DNA from: Kitasatospora albolonga
Lineage (GTDB): Bacteria; Actinomycetota; Actinomycetes; Streptomycetales; Streptomycetaceae
NCBI GenBank assembly: GCA_002082585.1
Contig: CP020563.1
Coordinates: 5,574,001-5,638,000 of the forward strand
Length of the DNA: 64,000 bases
Direction: 5' to 3'
Positions 44,840-54,630 of the stretch are shown one piece after another. Made by a program: the position numbers and the translations under genes. The first letter of the stretch is position 1, and the number at the start of each line of letters is the position of its first letter. The notes under the pieces are model-generated. The model was not told the DNA's origin, did no database searches, and saw only the letters and a list, made by a program, of their open reading frames with translations.

Positions 44840-44907
44840 CGGGGCATCATCGCCGTGAACGGCGGTCAGGGTGGACGCTGAGCTATAGAGGGTGACAGAG
44901 GGTGCCG

Positions 44908-45669
44908 ATGAGTGCGGTCGAGCAGGTATTTCTGGAGTGCGAGCGTGCTCGGGCAGACGGTGACTTGATTCAGCGGGTCTCCGCCAGTGACAAGGAGTAC
45001 CACTTTCAGAATTGGGTGCAGGCCCGCATAGAGGCATGCAGGCTTTCGTATGATGATCCCGGCCGGAACACCTATCCGGACTTCCGGCTCATCCACCACC
45101 CGGAAGGGTACGAGGTCAAGGGCCTGGAGTTTCCCGGCCGCGAGGCCGACTATGACTCCAACTCCCAGGTGCCCACCGGTAACCACGGCGGGCGTGAGGT
45201 CTTCTATGTGTTCGGTCGCTACCCGAAGGCAGAGCGCGGCGTCGAGGAGTACCCGGTTGTCGACCTAGTGGTGTGCCACGGCAGCTTCCTCAATGCCGAT
45301 AGCGAATACATTCACAAGAACAAGTCGTTCCGTGGCTTCGGCTCGTACGGAGACATCCTGGTCCGCGACCGCAAGATGTACGTCGTGCCAACGCCGTTCG
45401 CGCTGGCTTCCGGAACTGCAGGGCTCGCGACTCTGATCGTTCCTGCGGAATTCGAGCCGCAGTCGGATGCTCTTGTCCAGGTGGGTGAACTTGATCGAAC
45501 CGAGGTGGACGAGGTCATCGTATCGTACGAGTTCAACCTTCAAACCAATGAGATGGTGACACATAAGGCGCCTAATCCCTATGCAGGTAAGGTCCATAGG
45601 TTCCGGGCATACCGCTCGCGTGGCGCAGGCGACTCCAAGTCGGTTTCCTTCGCGAGAGGTCGACTGTGA
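44908..45669 (+). CDS. Probable PD-(D/E)xK restriction endonuclease
   Basis: The 253-residue protein is unlike its neighbours in codon use, being less G/C-biased. Pro57-Asp58 in NTYPDFRLIHHPEGYEVKG are followed ten residues later by Glu69-Val70-Lys71, a PD-(D/E)xK nuclease core. The GREADYDSNSQVPTGNHGGR and DLVVCHGSF segments are typical of a nuclease beta-sheet. It overlaps a DNA methyltransferase gene by GTGA, which gives the function by context. ATG 44908 has GAGGG five bases upstream; a GTG at 44902 is an alternative. Specificity is unknown. No database search was possible. Confidence 0.6.
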   Translation: MSAVEQVFLECERARADGDLIQRVSASDKEYHFQNWVQARIEACRLSYDDPGRNTYPDFRLIHHPEGYEVKGLEFPGREADYDSNSQVPTGNHGGREVFYVFGRYPKAERGVEEYPVVDLVVCHGSFLNADSEYIHKNKSFRGFGSYGDILVRDRKMYVVPTPFALASGTAGLATLIVPAEFEPQSDALVQVGELDRTEVDEVIVSYEFNLQTNEMVTHKAPNPYAGKVHRFRAYRSRGAGDSKSVSFARGRL

Positions 45670-47768
45670 CGCTCGTGGTACCGCAACGCACCAGCCTGGA
45701 GTCGAACTTTCCGGCGGCGATGCTCAGCGGTGTCGGAACGAAGGAATCCTGGCGCAAGGAAGTGCACCGTCCGGCCACCAGTACGCACAAGTGGTGGGCC
45801 AAGCGCCTCGGCACCGTATTCCGGGGGATCATTACGTCGGCGGCGACGCCTGCTGGAGCCGACGCCGCGGGAGCCTACGGATCGTCGCTCGATCTGGAGG
45901 GAGCGGTTGTGCTCGACCCGTTCTCCGGATCAGGTGTGACCGGTGTGGAAGCCCTTAAAGCCGGGGCCAAGGCTGTTTGTTTCGATATCAACCCTGTCGC
46001 AACGCTCGTTCAGCGCCAAGCTATTCAACCGTGGGATCTCGGTTCTCTTGAAGCTGCCTACAAGGAGGTCGAGTCGGCCTGTCGATCCGAGGTTGACCGG
46101 CTCCACTGCGCAGAGGACGGGAGGACGGTTCTCTACTACTTTTGGGTCGCGGCCCTCGGCTGCCCCGAGTGTTCCAGGAAAGTTCACCTGTTTGACTCGC
46201 CAGTTTTCTCCAAGAACGCGTACCCGAAACGAGTACCCAAAGCGCAAATTGTTTGTCCCGAGTGCCTCTCCGTCAAGGAGAGTCGGTACGACTTCGTCGC
46301 TGAGACCTGTTCGAATGGTCACACAATTTCGCAGCGCGGTGCGGTGCGGGGTCAGTCGGCGACATGCGGGAACGGTCACAGCTTCAAGGTCCTCGGCGCC
46401 CTGAACGGATCGCCACCGGTATACGAAATGTATGCCAAGCTGGTAGCCAACTCGGATGGCTCGAAGAGCTACGAAGCCATTACCGACTGGGATCGTGCAC
46501 TCTACGACGAGTGTGTTGCCATGCTCGCAGAGCTATCACAGTCTGCCGTCCTTCCGAGCAGTCGGCTAGCTCCCGGAAATAATACTGACCAGGCCCTGAA
46601 GTGGAACTTTCGGGAGTGGCGTGATTTCTTCAACGCGCGTCAGCTGATCTCCCTCTCGCTGATTGCTACGGCGATTCGTGACCTGACTGGATCAGCTCCT
46701 GAACGCGAAGCGCTCTGTGCCCTGTTCTCAGGAACGCTTGAGTTCAATAACCTGTTCACATCATTCAAGGGTGAGGGGACAGGGGCTGTCCGGCATATGT
46801 TCAGCCATCACGTCCTGAAGCCGGAGCGAACTCCGCTGGAAGCGCACCCCTGGGGTACGTCGCAGTCCTCCGGCGCCTTCTCGACTCTCTTCAAGAGCCG
46901 TCTGCGGCGTGCTCACGAGTACAAGAGGAAACCCGTAGACCTCGTTGACAGGGGTGCAGGGATCGAGCGGATCTCCGGGGTGTCAAAGCCAGTGGGCACG
47001 AGCATTGCGGATTCGTGGGAGGCTTTCGTCTCCAGCGAAGGGCAGGCAGCCTATGTCGCCACCAGGAACTCGGCGCATATGGATATCCCGGATGGGTCGG
47101 TTGACCTGATCATTACTGATCCGCCCTACATGGACAACGTCCACTACGCGGAGCTCGCGGACTTCTTTCATGCGTGGCTCCAGCACATGCAGCCGTACGT
47201 CGGCTATTCCGATGCGACAACGACCCGTCGAGTGGGCGAGGTCCAGCATGCTGACCCGGTTGAATTCAGGAAGGCAATCGAGGCCGTATGGACCGAGTCG
47301 GCGAGAGTCTTGAAGCCGGGTGGTCTGCTGGCCTTCACGTTCCACCAGGCTCGGATCAGCGGGTGGGTGCAGGTAGTTGAGTCGCTACGCTGCTCCGGGT
47401 GGGTCGTGATGGCCGTCCAACCGGTGAAAGGTGAGATGACGACCAGCGTCGTCAAGGCTGGTTCCCGTGAACCCTCCAATCTCGATAGCGTTGTGGTGTG
47501 CCGCCGGGCTGTGGACGGGGCTACGAATCCTCATTCTTCGGCGGAGGAAGCTCTAGCGGCTGTTATCAGGGAGCTGACAGACCTTCGAGATGCCCAGGTC
47601 GATATCGGGGCAGGCGACATCAGATCAGTTGTCCGCGGTGCGCTTCTGGCCTATCTCGCGTCCACAGGCGTGGACCTTGATGATTCAGCCACCGCGCAGG
47701 TGGACTTCCTGGCAACAGAAAGCATTCAGAAGCTGCTTGGGTCCGATTCGGGTAGCGGCGGTCGCTGA
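45666..47768 (+). CDS. Site-specific DNA methyltransferase with zinc-ribbon-like inserts
   Basis: The 700-residue protein begins with STHKWWAKRLGTVFRGII, like the WWA motif of DUF1156-type methylases. Then come motif I DPFSGSGVTGVEAL (residues 84-97) and, far downstream, motif IV DLIITDPPYMDNVHY (DPPY at 485-488) with ESARVLKPGGLLAF. This order resembles alpha-class adenine or cytosine-N4 methylases. Between them lie CPEC pairs at 166/169 and 197/200 and CSNGH and CGNGH near 218 and 235, suggesting zinc ribbons. GTG 45666 overlaps the endonuclease stop. Codon bias is low, indicating transfer. Confidence 0.85.
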   Translation: MTLVVPQRTSLESNFPAAMLSGVGTKESWRKEVHRPATSTHKWWAKRLGTVFRGIITSAATPAGADAAGAYGSSLDLEGAVVLDPFSGSGVTGVEALKAGAKAVCFDINPVATLVQRQAIQPWDLGSLEAAYKEVESACRSEVDRLHCAEDGRTVLYYFWVAALGCPECSRKVHLFDSPVFSKNAYPKRVPKAQIVCPECLSVKESRYDFVAETCSNGHTISQRGAVRGQSATCGNGHSFKVLGALNGSPPVYEMYAKLVANSDGSKSYEAITDWDRALYDECVAMLAELSQSAVLPSSRLAPGNNTDQALKWNFREWRDFFNARQLISLSLIATAIRDLTGSAPEREALCALFSGTLEFNNLFTSFKGEGTGAVRHMFSHHVLKPERTPLEAHPWGTSQSSGAFSTLFKSRLRRAHEYKRKPVDLVDRGAGIERISGVSKPVGTSIADSWEAFVSSEGQAAYVATRNSAHMDIPDGSVDLIITDPPYMDNVHYAELADFFHAWLQHMQPYVGYSDATTTRRVGEVQHADPVEFRKAIEAVWTESARVLKPGGLLAFTFHQARISGWVQVVESLRCSGWVVMAVQPVKGEMTTSVVKAGSREPSNLDSVVVCRRAVDGATNPHSSAEEALAAVIRELTDLRDAQVDIGAGDIRSVVRGALLAYLASTGVDLDDSATAQVDFLATESIQKLLGSDSGSGGR

Positions 47769-49599: not shown

Positions 49600-50010
49600 T
49601 CAGCTCCCGTCTTCCTCTTCGGTGCGTTCGGCGATCTCGGGGGTTCCGGGGAAGAGGTGGGGGTGTTGCCGGGCGAGGTCGTGGGTGATCGCTTCGTGGG
49701 TGGGGTCGGTGATGTCCCAGCTGTGGGGCGAGGGGTGGTCGGCGAAGAGTTCGCAGGCTTCTTTACGGGGGTCGAGGGCGAGGCACCAGGGCAGCGGGAT
49801 CAGCCGGGCGCGGTGGGTGTTCCAGCGGGCCCAGACGGCGCCTCCGGTCGGGCCTCCTTCGTCCCAGAGCATGGTGGCGTGGTCGCCGGGGTGGTCGGTG
49901 GCGAGTTCGCAGAGGATGTGGCCGGGTTCGGCGGCGAGGGTGATGAGGTGGTCGGGAGGCGGCAGGAGGGCGACTGCGGTGCACTGGCGCATGGCGGGGT
50001 CCCCCGTCAT
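49600..50010 (-). CDS. Unknown protein with C-x-L-x3-H-x3-H repeats, gene 5 of operon
   Basis: The 136-residue protein starts MTGDPAMRQCTAVALL and contains the motif twice: CELATDHPGDH (about residues 36-46) and CELFADHPSPHSWDITDP (about 95-112). Cys and two His at fixed spacing suggest metal binding. It is clearly related to the product of the upstream gene (QCTAV start, PWC, HSW-x-TDP). The ATG at 50010 overlaps that gene's stop (ATGA). Last gene of a coupled operon running from 51437 to 49600. Function unknown. Confidence 0.65.
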   Translation of the reverse strand: MTGDPAMRQCTAVALLPPPDHLITLAAEPGHILCELATDHPGDHATMLWDEGGPTGGAVWARWNTHRARLIPLPWCLALDPRKEACELFADHPSPHSWDITDPTHEAITHDLARQHPHLFPGTPEIAERTEEEDGS

Positions 50011-50453
50011 CTCGGTTTGCCGGTGGGGTCGTCGGGCGTATCGCCGTTCTTGGTGCTGCCCGTGGTGACCGGTCCGGCGAGGAGGTCGCTCAGGGGGTCG
50101 GTCACGCCCCAGGAGTGGTCTCCGGTGTGCTGGGCGAGGAGCGAGCACGGCAGTACGGAGTCGGTGTCGAGGATGCGCAGGACGGCGGGGCACCACGGCA
50201 CCGTGGTGATGCGGTGGGTGCGGTCCATGTCGGTGCCGGTCCAGAGGAGCCAGAGCGCGGGGCGGTGGGGTGTTCCGCCCGGGCAGAGGAGCGCGGCGTG
50301 TTCGGTGTGGGTGTCGTGCTCGCCGAGTTCGCACAGGACGTAGTGGGCCGGGGGGAGTGAGCTGAGGGGGTTGTCGGGGCCGCTTTCCATGGTGGTGAGG
50401 GCGAGGAGTACGTCGGTGAGGGGGGCCAGGGTCACGGCGGTGCACTGGAGCAC
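50007..50453 (-). CDS. Unknown protein with C-x-L-x3-H-x3-H repeats, gene 4 of operon
   Basis: The 148-residue protein starts at GTG 50453 (VLQCTAVTLAPLTDVLLALT) and is a paralogue of the next gene's product. It has CSLLAQHTGDHSWGVTDP (exact C-x-L-x3-H-x3-H) and a shifted version CELGEHDTHTEH. The ribosome binding site is weak. It starts 30 bp after the previous stop and overlaps the next gene by ATGA. Function unknown. Confidence 0.6.
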   Translation of the reverse strand: MLQCTAVTLAPLTDVLLALTTMESGPDNPLSSLPPAHYVLCELGEHDTHTEHAALLCPGGTPHRPALWLLWTGTDMDRTHRITTVPWCPAVLRILDTDSVLPCSLLAQHTGDHSWGVTDPLSDLLAGPVTTGSTKNGDTPDDPTGKPR

Positions 50454-50482
50454 GGTCGGGGGCCTTGTCTTCTGAGAGGGGT

Positions 50483-50857
50483 TTACGGGTGCCCGGCGGG
50501 GGAGCCGTGCCACCCGGCGAGGGTGAGGGTCAGCTCGACGGCGGGGTCGAGGACGGTGAACTGGAGCGGGAATCCGGCTTCGAGGGTGCGTATCGCGTCG
50601 TCCTGGCGGCGGCCGTCGGTGGCCCAGAACCGCAACCCTTCGGGGGCGTCGGAGCTGCGGAAGAGTACGGGGCGTACGTCGTTGGGTGCCGCGTCCCGTA
50701 CGGTGCCCCCGCATCCGTGTCCGTCGGCGAGGCGGAGCGCCTGCCTGCGGAGCCAGAGGAGGACGAGTCGCCGGTTGCGTACGGTGATGCCTCCGAGCGA
50801 GGCGGAGCGGTGGCCGTGGGAGAGGGTGACCTGGGCGGCATAGCGGGTGTGGGTCAT
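50483..50857 (-). CDS. Unknown protein, gene 3 of operon
   Basis: The 124-residue protein starts MTHTRYAAQVTLSHGHRSAS and contains NRRLVLLWLRRQALRLADGH, then ATDGRRQDDAIRTLEAGF and LTLTLAGWHGSPAG. No domain is recognised. ATG 50857 overlaps the stop of the preceding gene (ATGA). The next gene starts 30 bp downstream. Confidence 0.6.
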   Translation of the reverse strand: MTHTRYAAQVTLSHGHRSASLGGITVRNRRLVLLWLRRQALRLADGHGCGGTVRDAAPNDVRPVLFRSSDAPEGLRFWATDGRRQDDAIRTLEAGFPLQFTVLDPAVELTLTLAGWHGSPAGHP

Positions 50858-51177
50858 GCGGCCCGCCCGTGGTCGCCGGAGACGGAGTTGGGGTCGGTGA
50901 CGAGGTGCCGGAGGTGTTCGGCCGCCGCCTCGATCGCGTGCACCACCGCCTCGCGTTCCGCGTCCCGGTCGGTGATCGCCGCGTTGAGCCGGGCGAGGAA
51001 CAGGGCCCGGTAGGCGGGGTCGGTCTCGATGCGTTGCAGCTCGGCGAAGGGGGCGTCGGGGGCGGTCCGGCGGCGGGTGAACGCCCACATCAGGCGGGGG
51101 AGGTGGCGCCGCAGGTGGACCTCGGCGGCCCCGAGTGCGAGGGTGAGCCGGACCCGTAACCGGGCGAGGGTGTTCAC
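50854..51177 (-). CDS. Unknown helical protein, gene 2 of operon
   Basis: The 107-residue protein has an amphipathic N-terminus (NTLARLRVRLTLALGAAEVH) and a charged helical rest (AELQRIETDPAYRALFLARL, AAEHLRHLVTDPNSVSGDHG). GTG 51177 overlaps the preceding stop (GTGA). No family is recognised. Confidence 0.6.
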   Translation of the reverse strand: MNTLARLRVRLTLALGAAEVHLRRHLPRLMWAFTRRRTAPDAPFAELQRIETDPAYRALFLARLNAAITDRDAEREAVVHAIEAAAEHLRHLVTDPNSVSGDHGRAA

Positions 51178-51437
51178 CGGGCCTCACCCCGGCTGCTGGT
51201 GTTCATCCGCGCGGTGTGGGAACGCAGTTGCTCTGTGGGGGGTGCGGGTCGTACGTGGCGGGGGTCGGCCTCCCACTCCCGTCCGCCGCCGATGGGGCGT
51301 AGTGCCCAGTAGCAGCCGGCGAGTCCTTGGAACTCGCCCACGCGGTTGTTGCGGCTGGTGTCCACCAGGAGGGTTCCGGGGGCGGGGAGGTCGGGGGGTG
51401 GTTCCTCGGGATTCGGGCAAGCGTTCACGCCGTACAC
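51174..51437 (-). CDS. Unknown small protein, gene 1 of operon
   Basis: The 87-residue protein starts at GTG 51437 behind GAGAGGAG (7-base spacing), the best ribosome site of the operon. Sequence features are PGTLLVDTSRNNRVGEFQGL and CYWALRPIGGGREWEADPRH. It may be a small SH3-like or beta-barrel fold; this is a guess. It is divergent from the XRE gene across 108 bp. Confidence 0.6.
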   Translation of the reverse strand: MYGVNACPNPEEPPPDLPAPGTLLVDTSRNNRVGEFQGLAGCYWALRPIGGGREWEADPRHVRPAPPTEQLRSHTARMNTSSRGEAR

Positions 51438-51502
51438 CGATCGGCTCCTCTCTGCCGCTGAACGGTTACCGAGGCGACTCAGGCTGACCTACCGTGAAGA
51501 AC

Positions 51503-51526
51503 CCTTCAACTGGCTGAAGTTGAAGG
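51503..51526. promoter_or_regulatory. Candidate operator of the XRE regulator
   Basis: CCTTCAACT-ggctga-AGTTGAAGG, a perfect 9-bp inverted repeat with a 6-base spacer, lies 20 bp before the XRE start and in the divergent interval shared with the five-gene operon. Confidence 0.6.
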
Positions 51527-51545: not shown

Positions 51546-52385
51546 ATGGTCAACATCAAGCAACTGGAGCCGGAGAGCAGCCCGCAGGCGGCGTTCGGTG
51601 CCCGTATCCGGCAGTTTCGCGAGGAGCGGGGGTGGACCCAGGACATGCTGGCCCCGAAGATCGGGTACTCCAGCCAGCACATCTCGGCCGTGGAAACTGT
51701 TCGCAAACCGCCAACTCTGCGGTTTTCGCGGAAGTCTGACCAGGCATTTGGTACGACCAACACGCCCGATTCCTTCGAGCGCGAGTACGCCAAGATGAGG
51801 AGCGGGGCGCTGCTGGAGGGCTTCCCCGAGTACGTGGGGTACGAGGGGCGGGCGGTGGAGATCAGGCTCTACAACCTGGGCCTGGTTCCGGGGCTGTTAC
51901 AGACTCCGGAGTACGCGCGGGCGGTGGCCTACGGGGACGTTGAACGTGGGTCCATCACCGCTGAACAGGCTGATGAGCGCGTCGCGTTCCTGGCGGAGCG
52001 GCAAGAGGCACTGGTTCGGTCGCGGCCGCCCATGGTGTTCGTCGTCATGGATGAGAGCTGTCTGCATCAGGCCGTCGGCGGGCCGGAGGTCATGGACGCC
52101 CAGCTGCAACGGCTGGAGGAGGTGGCCGCGCGGCCCAACTGGATCATCCAGGTCGCGCCGTTCAGCATGGGGGTGCGCAGGGCGTTCCATCTGCCGGTCA
52201 ACCTGCTGACCATGGACGACCGCTCCATCGTCGCGTACGCCGAATCGCAGGCTCAGGGGTACGTCGAGCGTGAAACGTCATTGGTGGCGCCGATGTTCAC
52301 GACCTACCATCAAATGCAGGGCGAGGCGTTGTCGAAGGCGGCGTCTGCGGCCAGGATCAGCCAGTTGCGAAAGGGCACCTCGTGA
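51546..52385 (+). CDS. XRE-family regulator with DUF5753 (Scr1 type)
   Basis: The 279-residue protein has an N-terminal HTH (FGARIRQFREERGWTQDMLA PKIGYSSQHISAVE, residues 17-50), followed by the DUF5753 ligand-type domain: EYAKMRSGALLEGFPEYVGY, LGLVPGLLQTPEYARAVAYG, QVAPFSMGVRRAFHLPVNLL. Streptomyces encode many such proteins paired with DUF397 proteins, as here (GTGA overlap with the next gene). They act as regulators of development or as toxin-antitoxin-like pairs. Confidence 0.9.
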   Translation: MVNIKQLEPESSPQAAFGARIRQFREERGWTQDMLAPKIGYSSQHISAVETVRKPPTLRFSRKSDQAFGTTNTPDSFEREYAKMRSGALLEGFPEYVGYEGRAVEIRLYNLGLVPGLLQTPEYARAVAYGDVERGSITAEQADERVAFLAERQEALVRSRPPMVFVVMDESCLHQAVGGPEVMDAQLQRLEEVAARPNWIIQVAPFSMGVRRAFHLPVNLLTMDDRSIVAYAESQAQGYVERETSLVAPMFTTYHQMQGEALSKAASAARISQLRKGTS

Positions 52386-52591
52386 AGACCGAATCCCCCC
52401 GTTGGTTCAAGTCCTCCTACAGCTCGAACGGCGGTGACTGCGTCGAGGTGGCCGCCAATCTCGTCGCCTCGCAGGGCATCGTCCCGGTGCGTGACTCCAA
52501 GTGCGTGGACGGTCCGGTGGTCGGCGTCCGTACCGCCGCGTTCTCCGCGTTCGTCGCGGGCGTGCAGGCCGGAGCGCTCGACGCCGTCTGA
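52382..52591 (+). CDS. DUF397 protein, copy 1
   Basis: The 69-residue protein has the DUF397 signature: WFKSSYSSNGGDCVEVAANL, then PVRDSKCVDGPVV and FSAFVAGVQAG. The GTG at 52382 overlaps the XRE stop, the usual arrangement. DUF397 proteins probably oppose or tune the partner regulator. A close paralogue lies at 54424-54630. Confidence 0.9.
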   Translation: MKTESPRWFKSSYSSNGGDCVEVAANLVASQGIVPVRDSKCVDGPVVGVRTAAFSAFVAGVQAGALDAV

Positions 52592-52640: not shown

Positions 52641-52690
52641 CTGTCTGGGTATGACCGGAGTCGCCGTGCCCTGACTTGCGGAGGTCGGAT

Positions 52691-53716
52691 ATGGACCCTT
52701 CTCGCCGTAGCGTGCTGGGAGTTGCCCTGTTGCCTGTCGTGCTCACCCTGCCGGATCGGCCGGACGCAGTGGGCCGTATGGAGGCCGCGCAGCTAGGAGC
52801 TCGTACGCGCATCGGCTTGTCCGACGTGCACACCGTCTCCGCCATGACCGAGCAACTCTCCTCAATGGATGATCAGTTCGGGGGGCGCGTCGCCCGCCCC
52901 CTCGCCGCAGCGTTTCTGGTGAACACGGTTGTGCCGTTCCTGCGGACCAGCGGCTCCGACGACGTACGCAGAGCGATGATGTCGGCGGCGGCGGACCTCT
53001 GCTACCTCACGGGATACATGGCGGTCGACGAAGGGCTGCACGGGCTCGCCCAGCGCTACTATCTCCAGGCACTGGAGCTTGCCGGAGCGTCGGAGGATCA
53101 CCTGACGTTCTGCACCACGCTCCGAGGGATGAGCGTGCAGGCCGTGGATCTGGGGCAAGGGCCGGTGGCCATGCGCCTCGCGGACGCCGCAGCGGCTGCG
53201 TCCCCTCAGGCCGGACCCCGGATGCGCGCCTTCCTCGCCGGACAACAGGCCCACGCGGCAGCGCAGACCGGTGACCGCCGCTCAGCCCTCATGTACTTGC
53301 AGGAAGCCGAATTCGCCATGGACAAGGCTGAAGCCCGGGGAAAGACCTTCGGCTCGTACGACCCTGCGTCCCTGAGCTATCACACCAGCCAGGTGCGGTT
53401 CGAAATGGGCGACGTACACGGCGCCGTTGTCGCCATGCAGGAATCGGACCGGCTGCGGTACAGCGTCTATCGCCGTACGCGTGTGAAGGAGCGAGCGATC
53501 CTCGCCGAGCGCCAATTGTCGACGGGGCACCTCGAAGCCGCCTGCAAGACGTGGGGGTTCGCGCTGGACGACTATCCCCTGGTCAACTCGGGGCGCATCG
53601 ACAAGCGCATGACCGACATGTTCAACCTCATCCGCCCGCACATCAGGAACCACGATGCCCAAGCGCTGTACGAGCGGGCTCGGGAGACCGTCCGGCCTGA
53701 GCTGATTCCGGCATGA
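52691..53716 (+). CDS. TPR regulator-like protein lacking the HTH
   Basis: The 341-residue protein starts at ATG 52691 (MDPSRRSVLGVALLPVVLTL) after GGAGG. It matches the C-terminal part of Streptomyces TPR/HTH regulators, where an R-RSVLG motif follows the HTH domain. Here the protein begins at that motif and the DNA-binding domain is missing. Helical repeats include GLAQRYYLQALELAGASEDH and SALMYLQEAEFAMDKAEARG. The N-terminal hydrophobic stretch could be mistaken for a signal peptide. Confidence 0.75.
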   Translation: MDPSRRSVLGVALLPVVLTLPDRPDAVGRMEAAQLGARTRIGLSDVHTVSAMTEQLSSMDDQFGGRVARPLAAAFLVNTVVPFLRTSGSDDVRRAMMSAAADLCYLTGYMAVDEGLHGLAQRYYLQALELAGASEDHLTFCTTLRGMSVQAVDLGQGPVAMRLADAAAAASPQAGPRMRAFLAGQQAHAAAQTGDRRSALMYLQEAEFAMDKAEARGKTFGSYDPASLSYHTSQVRFEMGDVHGAVVAMQESDRLRYSVYRRTRVKERAILAERQLSTGHLEAACKTWGFALDDYPLVNSGRIDKRMTDMFNLIRPHIRNHDAQALYERARETVRPELIPA

Positions 53717-53770: not shown

Positions 53771-54337
53771 GTGCGGAAGGAGTGGGGGGTGGTCCGGGAC
53801 TTCCAGCCGCTCAGGCGGCGCGGGATTCAGCGGCTGGCGCGTGAGCAGTGGGGGACCGGGCGCTCCGTCTGGGAAGCGGATCTCGGCGATGGCCGGGAAC
53901 TGGTCGTGGACCAGGTGGAGGTGCGTGAGGGGGCTGCACCGGAGAGCGTGGCGAGGGTGCTCGGCCTTGGGGCGGGGGAGCGGGCCTGGGTCAGGAGTCG
54001 CCGGTTCGTGCTGGACGGTAAGCCGGTGCTGCTGTCGACGTCGTACCTTCCCGCGTCCCTGGTCGGGGGCTCAGCCATCACTCAGCCGGACACGGGCCCC
54101 GGAGGCATCTACGCACGGCTGGCCGAGCTGGGCCACCGGCCGGTCCGCTTCCGGGAGGAGATCCGCTCCCGTATGCCTCTGCCGGAGGAGGCGTCGAAGC
54201 TGAGTCTTCCGGCCGGGACGCCCGTCATGCTCGTCTGCCGGACCGCGTTCGCGGAGGAGGGCCGCCGTCCCGTGGAGGTCAACGACATGGTCCTCGACGC
54301 GGCGGCCTATGTACTGGAGTACGACTTCGACGCGTGA
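53771..54337 (+). CDS. UTRA-domain protein, GntR-type regulator without HTH
   Basis: The 188-residue protein contains a UTRA ligand-binding domain (VRVLGLGAGERAWVRSRRFV region with LDGKPVLLSTSYLP and SLPAGTPVMLVCRTAFAEEG). In GntR/HutC regulators this follows a winged helix of about 70 residues, which is absent. The start is GTG 53771 or GTG 53789. It may be a truncated regulator that binds a ligand or forms mixed dimers. The DUF397 copy 2 follows at 54424. Confidence 0.75.
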   Translation: MRKEWGVVRDFQPLRRRGIQRLAREQWGTGRSVWEADLGDGRELVVDQVEVREGAAPESVARVLGLGAGERAWVRSRRFVLDGKPVLLSTSYLPASLVGGSAITQPDTGPGGIYARLAELGHRPVRFREEIRSRMPLPEEASKLSLPAGTPVMLVCRTAFAEEGRRPVEVNDMVLDAAAYVLEYDFDA

Positions 54338-54423: not shown

Positions 54424-54630
54424 ATGACCGAGCACCCGCAGTGGTTCACGTCCTCGTACAGCGCTAACGGCGGCAACTGCGTCGAGCTGGCCGTCAATCT
54501 CGTCGCCTCGCGGGGCGTCGTGCCGGTCCGGGACTCGAAGTGCGTGGGCGGTCCGGTGGTCGACGTCCGTACGGGGGCGTTCTCCGCGTTCGTCGCAGGC
54601 GTGCGGGCCGGGACGTTCGACGCCGTGTGA
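54424..54630 (+). CDS. DUF397 protein, copy 2
   Basis: The 68-residue protein (MTEHPQWFTSSYSANGGNCV and PVRDSKCVGGPVVDVRTGAF) is a close paralogue of copy 1 at 52382. No XRE-DUF5753 gene precedes it; the neighbour is the UTRA protein. It is probably a duplicated leftover. Confidence 0.85.
   Translation: MTEHPQWFTSSYSANGGNCVELAVNLVASRGVVPVRDSKCVGGPVVDVRTGAFSAFVAGVRAGTFDAV

Follow-up and report, generated by a model that had tools for sequence, protein, structure and literature searches.

The window analysed here is a stretch of 64,000 nucleotides from Kitasatospora albolonga (contig CP020563.1, positions 5,574,001 to 5,638,000 of the forward strand), and it contains an operon of five small genes, g1 to g5, that runs divergently from a gene pair for a WhiJ-type regulator and a BldB-like DUF397 protein (Table 1). 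A preliminary description of this DNA had reported five coupled genes on one strand with three overlaps and a 30-bp gap, divergent from an XRE-DUF5753/DUF397 pair. Coordinates and junctions agree with the coupling (g1 and g2 overlap by GTGA, g2 and g3 as well as g4 and g5 by ATGA), the gap between g3 and g4 measures 29 bp by coordinates, and the Pfam matches agree with the nature of the divergent pair. A simple codon-usage gene finder called g2 to g5 and missed g1, which we accept as a gene because conserved relatives exist. None of the five products reached a family in scans against Pfam and NCBIfam, in line with the earlier claim that they lack a recognised family; the match of g2 to SlyX (E = 0.067) was below its cut-off, and PHROG matches of g1 (E = 1.4e-4) and g3 (E = 2.5e-3) were weak and of unknown function. 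The fold predicted for g1 is a small SH3/Tudor-like barrel with a C-terminal helix.

Table 1. Features of the operon, the divergent regulator pair and the region between them (positions in the window; aa, amino acids)
Feature	Position	Strand	Properties
g1	51437-51174	minus	GTG start, 87 aa
g2	51177-50854	minus	GTG start, 107 aa, basic, TTA codon, without family
g3	50857-50483	minus	ATG start, 124 aa, 13.6 kDa, pI 10.9
g4	50453-50007	minus	GTG start, 148 aa, ZH-family Cys/His protein
g5	50010-49600	minus	ATG start, 136 aa, ZH-family Cys/His protein
WhiJ-type regulator (XRE helix-turn-helix + DUF5753)	51546-52385	plus	Pfam DUF5753 E 6e-44, HTH_31 E 3e-12; TTA codon
DUF397 (BldB-like) partner	52382-52591	plus	Pfam E 7e-19; 4-bp overlap with XRE gene
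Conserved block GTTGAAG-N12-TAGGTCAGCCTGA	51479-51510	minus	
Position of the relatives' 16-bp dyad GTAG-N8-CTAC	51454-51469	minus	degenerate at the window (GTAACCGTTCAGCGGC)
Shine-Dalgarno stretch of g1, AGAGAGGAGCC	51443-51453	minus	directly after the dyad position
Perfect inverted repeat CCTTCAACT-N6-AGTTGAAGG	51503-51526		9+9 bp; one half is the conserved GTTGAAG

The last two genes are paralogues, as previously claimed and as a search of the own genome and an alignment confirmed, and judged by their sequences they belong to a previously undescribed protein family with strongly conserved Cys and His residues, which we call ZH. The own genome, a single contig of 8.03 Mb, has eight places that match g5, with g4 and g5 itself counted. 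Using a 9-row alignment as query, ZH was detected in at least 67 of 392 Streptomyces genomes (a lower bound, since 10 candidates were scored per genome), in 8 of 61 genomes sampled across the family and in 5 of 197 sampled across the class, the window's own genome being included in each of these counts. The motifs of the preliminary description are present as written, namely CELATDHPGDH and CELFADHPSPH in g5 and CSLLAQHTGDH together with a shifted version, CELGEHDTHTEH, in g4. Their conservation was followed in 118 ZH segments, left from 120 after one low-scoring and one duplicate segment had been dropped; these were chosen by the family profile, which biases the set toward members that keep the Cys/His residues. 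Near-invariant columns (g5 numbering) are an N-terminal Cys (113 of 118), C34, L36 and H44 (115 each), W60 and W63 (113 each), C76 (112), C86 (114), and H92 and H96 (113 each). All seven Cys/His columns are jointly retained in 105 of the segments, which upholds the conserved pattern claimed earlier, and conservation extends beyond the motif first noted, to the N-terminal Cys, the Cys of LPWC and two Trp residues. The C-terminal motif keeps the spacing C-x5-H-x3-H in 109 segments and the exact form C-x-L-x3-H-x3-H in 88. At the N-terminal motif the spacing is looser (C-x5-H-x3-H in 36, C-x4-H-x5-H in 32, C-x4-H-x4-H in 25), with the exact form in 38. Because of these counts in 118 non-identical family segments, we regard the motifs as conserved rather than as a product of chance. 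The compact fold used in tandem that had been proposed found no support, since no homology was detectable between the two half-motifs of a protein (probability in the profile comparison, 0.2%).

Given that 105 of the 118 segments retain all seven Cys/His columns, ZH proteins are likely to bind a metal, most likely zinc, and the pattern would be compatible with one or two metal sites. Small zinc-finger proteins are short proteins with conserved Cys/His clusters. ZH differs from them in lacking a conserved CxxC pair and in its C-x5-H-x3-H spacing, and its profile matched neither a PDB chain nor a Pfam profile. At two loci, ZH continues in frame into another domain: into a GNAT domain at L112 (6064-7068), where an internal start might make GNAT separate, and into a NUDIX domain at L089 (7223-8371), with a weak helix-turn-helix match (E = 0.11) in between. 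No Cys/His cargo of WhiJ loci was named in the open-access literature under the terms searched.

The association of the operon with the regulator pair is recurrent. We compiled 90 ZH loci, consisting of 80 places fetched from a longer match list (mostly the top-ranked, several entries being passed over), six own-genome regions, three named loci and the window; one locus is in this set twice, as L048 and as L109. A divergent XRE gene within 5.5 kb together with a DUF397 gene was found at 53 of them, and among these 53 loci, 45 have a match to g1 and/or g3 and 15 a match to g2. The usual gene order is DUF397-XRE and, divergently, g1-(g2)-g3-ZH-(ZH). For the relatives, genes were taken from six-frame searches with hidden Markov models under thresholds of our own and from the codon-usage caller, which overlooked small genes; the models used for the neighbourhoods derive from the same loci, which helps recall but does not create gene order, and the relatives are not independent of each other. 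Among 20 fetched g3 regions, XRE and DUF397 genes were present in four (L220, L221, L222 and L227). A g3 homologue of about 136 amino acids (MHDEFLCHVTAYG or close) occurs as a single match per genome in many Streptomyces, without adjoining XRE/DUF397 (L208-L211, L214-L216, L218, L219 and L223-L225).

The window locus has the make-up of the whiJ/bldB/abaA (orfA) clusters: an XRE-DUF5753 gene is followed on the same strand by an adjoining DUF397 gene, and a third component lies divergent from the XRE gene (PMC4255298 and PMC10294661, each in the part of its text available). Since the operon occupies the slot of described whiJ/bldB/abaA(iosA) loci, it is not without precedent. It differs from the abaA type in that the slot is filled by g1-g2-g3-ZH-ZH, none of the five products having a HATPase match, and in that its regulator belongs to an XRE clade of its own in this genome. 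At the DUF397 genes of the own genome the divergent slot holds a HATPase gene at 16 loci (L138 with an unusual position of DUF397), HATPase plus ZH at one (L043), a g1-type operon at three (the window, L041 and L044) and no recognised gene at about 10. When 30 XREs of the own genome are placed in a tree, those of the three g1-type loci group as a single clade (support, 100/99), whereas those of HATPase-type loci are scattered.

According to the available text of PMC4255298, most whiJ paralogues are accompanied by a small SCO4542-type gene and/or an antisigma-like gene. Five abaA paralogues and iosA are upregulated when S. venezuelae loses bldB, iosA about 750-fold; iosA adjoins whiJ9-bldB9 in the same context as abaA paralogues, and WhiJ9 is required for activating the divergent iosA, binds three CGXXCTCAAC repeats downstream of its own promoter and, when lost, leaves its own transcription doubled (PMC10294661, in part). 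BldB interacts with BldB9 and did not bind DNA, and the same partial text calls its biochemical function unknown. The window shares with iosA-whiJ9-bldB9 a non-AbaA small protein that adjoins whiJ and bldB paralogues, and IosA (vnz16670), reported there as 15 kDa with a pI of 10.3, is near the medians of the g3 family (15.1 kDa and pI 10.7 in 36 members), a likeness of size and pI alone. In contrast to the message of iosA, described as leaderless (PMC10294661, in part), the window operon has as many as five coupled genes, preceded by a leader and a Shine-Dalgarno stretch.

The intergenic region carries a signature of its own. In the upstream regions of the 53 XRE-linked loci, the typical order is GTTGAA, 13-14 bases, TAGGNCANNCTG, about 10 bases and the 16-bp dyad GTAG-N8-CTAC, which RGAGAGGAG follows. 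A search of the own genome for GTTGAAG-N11..14-TAGGNCANNCTGA gave three places, all of them g1-type loci, and the reversed control gave none; no such signature was found at HATPase-type loci, which were covered by inspection of L043, L050, L119 and L127 and by this own-genome pattern search. The dyad is present in 44 of the 53 upstream regions, compared to 0.4% of shuffles (two-base blocks), and its spacing is near-constant. It is missing from nine loci, which are the window, where it is degenerate, the HATPase loci L043, L050, L119 and L127, the loci L072, L084 and L088, which are without g1 or g3, and L126, which has g1. The perfect operator of the preliminary description does exist as a palindrome, whose 8+8 core (2-10 bp spacer) occurs only once in the 8.03-Mb genome, and its GTTGAAG half is conserved, but taken in full the palindrome is not what the relatives keep: a second half of similar kind turned up at L060 alone, and there it is imperfect. 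Conserved instead are the GTTGAAG half, the TAGGNCANNCTG block and the 16-bp dyad.

The full signature with the dyad was found at 80 places in 54 of the 392 genomes, and its reversed control at none. A divergent XRE gene with DUF397 is present at all 30 of the signature places fetched (22 new, 8 inside regions already fetched via ZH). At 21 of the 30, a match to g1, g3 or ZH (E = 0.01) lies no more than 1.5 kb away. The earlier claim that the operon is linked to the XRE/DUF397 pair is hence backed by recurrence over loci (53 of 90) and over genomes. A fast-evolving small-gene operon could have come to lie beside an unrelated regulator by chance, and the patchy distribution of ZH would fit such a pairing; the recurrence, the shared slot, the single own-genome XRE clade, the single signature and the 30 of 30 fetched places argue against it, and we give it next to no credence. 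Two signature loci may be mentioned for their content: at L205 (3191-6358), the divergent side has an ATP-grasp gene and a PCMT-like gene, both judged by eye, and the viral contig IMGVR_UViG_2934680705_000002 (L129, 3859-5255) carries DUF397, the full signature and g1.

The position of the dyad directly before the Shine-Dalgarno stretch raises the question of whether it acts in the RNA, as a hairpin that controls translation beside the ribosome-binding site, and not in the DNA, as an operator for the XRE protein. Among 39 distinct sites out of 64, whose outer pairs 1-4 are invariant and largely fixed by the search patterns, pair 5/12 tolerates T-G (14 sites) and rarely has C-A (one site), and pairs 5/12 and 6/11 pair above shuffles (value reached by 51 and 18 of 2000, respectively). 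However, the inner pairs 7/10 and 8/9 pair below shuffles (value reached by 1980 and 1957 of 2000), base bias at positions 5 and 12 accounts for part of the T-G/C-A asymmetry, and three C-A sites occur among the full-signature places listed. A hairpin in place of an operator seems doubtful to us, and it is possible that both readings of the dyad hold.

At several loci a solo ZH gene precedes genes for a radical SAM protein and for a peptide of 45-54 amino acids that ends in DDNPH or DDNPYR (radical SAM was identified by family search at L042 and L095 alone, with a weak GNAT match at L042), and it is imaginable that the operon is an accessory of a ribosomally synthesized and post-translationally modified peptide (RiPP) pathway, in which peptide-modifying enzymes would be the targets or partners of ZH and g1/g3, with the WhiJ switch as pathway regulator. 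In the same direction point L040, where ZH comes after a PCMT gene, a gene for a 63-amino-acid peptide and a lantibiotic dehydratase-like gene; the S. cattleyicolor plasmid, where g1, a PCMT-like protein (by eye) and a DDNPYR peptide are encoded on one strand, with gaps; and the L039 region, with a match below the cut-off to the methyltransferase of an ATP-grasp system. At the window locus itself, neither a precursor peptide nor a modifying enzyme could be recognised, and at most XRE-linked loci g1-g3 and ZH are all that was recognised, other genes there not having been searched. On balance, we consider the accessory role unlikely.

The solo-ZH cassette, as seen at L042 (5389-8144) and similar loci, has ZH upstream of genes for a radical SAM protein (about 372-374 amino acids), a 45-54 amino acid peptide with the DDNPH/DDNPYR ending and a protein of 273-290 amino acids, and the cassette is often accompanied by a divergent NsdA-family regulator with a NUDIX gene behind it. 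Similar cassettes were recognised by eye at L085, L087, L090, L093, L094, L095, L101 and L110 and partial ones at L105 and L113, families being tested at L042, L087 and L095. This arrangement resembles a RiPP-type cassette and is uncharacterised. Plasmid pSCAT of S. cattleyicolor (L228, 571-5884) has an XRE gene and two DUF397 genes divergent from g1, and further along the g1 strand follow a 381-amino-acid protein (PCMT-like by eye), a gap and a 52-amino-acid peptide ending in GCNDDNPYR; this locus may be a connection between the peptide cassette and the WhiJ/g1 arrangement.

XRE-DUF397 pairs have also been proposed as toxin-antitoxin systems (PMC6262351, in part), and the pair of the window might accordingly be of type II, with the divergent small genes as bystanders or as part of a mobile defence island. 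A PglX/DUF1156-like DNA methyltransferase gene ends about 2 kb beyond g5, the window XRE has weak matches to helix-turn-helix models of defence systems, and g1 has relatives both on a viral contig, next to DUF397 and the signature, and on a megaplasmid of S. cattleyicolor, accompanied there by XRE and DUF397. On the other hand, fourteen XRE/DUF397 pairs of S. coelicolor were pleiotropic regulators and did not behave as toxin-antitoxin systems (PMC10364602, in part), g1-g5 and DUF397 had no match to a defence model at E = 0.01, and recurrence with a single signature in 54 genomes would be surprising for bystanders. We regard this alternative as very unlikely.

In sum, the gene content, its recurrence, the slot shared with HATPase genes, the own-genome XRE clade, the signature and the Cys/His conservation point toward a WhiJ/BldB-type regulatory divergon whose divergent slot, usually taken by an AbaA-like HATPase gene or, in S. 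venezuelae, by iosA, carries the small-protein operon g1-g2-g3-ZH-ZH, and we consider this reading probable, together with the following switch and a metal-stabilised ZH output. In our model, the XRE-DUF5753 protein would bind the intergenic block at GTTGAA, which reads TTCAAC in the coding direction of the XRE gene and lies about 36 bp before the start codon of that gene; it would restrain its own promoter and activate or release the divergent operon, while the DUF397 protein (and BldB) would restrain the divergent operon until a signal arrives. This direction of control and the role of DUF397/BldB are modelled on the published work on WhiJ9 and IosA. The products of g1-g5 would be made together by coupled translation, and the two ZH proteins may be effectors or adaptors, stabilised by a metal (most likely zinc), with an influence on the timing of development or specialised metabolism; this action of the cargo, its metal binding and the identity of the metal we infer.

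Several points weigh against this divergon model. For the window locus its basis is sequence, from which expression and binding are inferred. The resemblance of the WhiJ9 repeat CTCAAC (PMC10294661, in part) to the conserved GTTGAA/G, which is TTCAAC/CTCAAC on the other strand, spans about six bases and is one of sequence alone; most loci have one conserved TTCAAC/CTCAAC and the window has two in inverted orientation, and no triple repeat was seen by eye in the regions inspected. A structure model of ZH from six sequences was unusable (mean predicted local distance difference test score, 44), which leaves conservation as the basis for metal binding. Thirty-five of the 90 ZH loci are without a nearby XRE gene and two have it otherwise arranged, so the function of ZH is not tied to the WhiJ switch. 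The XRE clade was tested within this single genome, in which XRE and ZH identities are uncorrelated (rho = -0.29, 41 pairs). The window locus, because its dyad is degenerate, is missing from the 80 full-signature places. Furthermore, 9 of the 30 signature places are without a g1, g3 or ZH match within 1.5 kb, and among 20 longer signature regions, chosen mainly where ZH was unseen, nine have a called gene like g1, g2 or g3, none has ZH, and the other genes are varied. Since XRE and DUF397 are present at 30 of 30 places and g1, g3 or ZH at 21, with other genes varied, the signature marks the regulator pair, and its cargo is partly exchangeable.

As a tentative extension, WhiJ-BldB pairs may be a general plug-in switch of streptomycetes with exchangeable small-protein cargo in the divergent slot. 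The clade with its own promoter/leader signature would then deliver an IosA-like brake (g3) and the zinc-protein family ZH, the latter also fused to GNAT or NUDIX domains and placed beside radical-SAM peptide cassettes, and would make the decision on sporulation or peptide production depend on metal or redox state.

The TTA codon in the XRE gene would connect the switch to bldA. Across the 53 loci, TTA was found in 22 of 60 XRE domain matches, compared to 2 of 67 called genes of the window as a control, which is biased because the codon-usage caller prefers genes of typical codon usage; among the g2 matches, 1 of 15 has it.

WhiJ/BldB loci are heavily duplicated in Streptomyces; in the available text of PMC10294661, only iosA is shown to depend on its neighbouring WhiJ, and abaA paralogues respond to BldB. 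The signature picks out one group of WhiJ loci and its cargo within a genome, the new Cys/His family ZH is a likely output of a WhiJ-BldB pair, and what such a pair switches becomes directly testable at a defined intergenic element.

Further genes lie around the locus. The 700-amino-acid DNA methyltransferase with PglX/DUF1156-like matches is encoded at 45666-47768 of the window, was missed by the codon-usage caller and adjoins a gene for 255 amino acids without family (44902-45669). A second DUF397 gene (54424-54630), for which an XRE gene of its own was not recognised, lies downstream of a UTRA-domain gene (53789-54337). Directly after the first DUF397 gene follows an NsdA-family TPR gene (52676-53716, plus strand), and the same family is found beside the solo ZH of L087.

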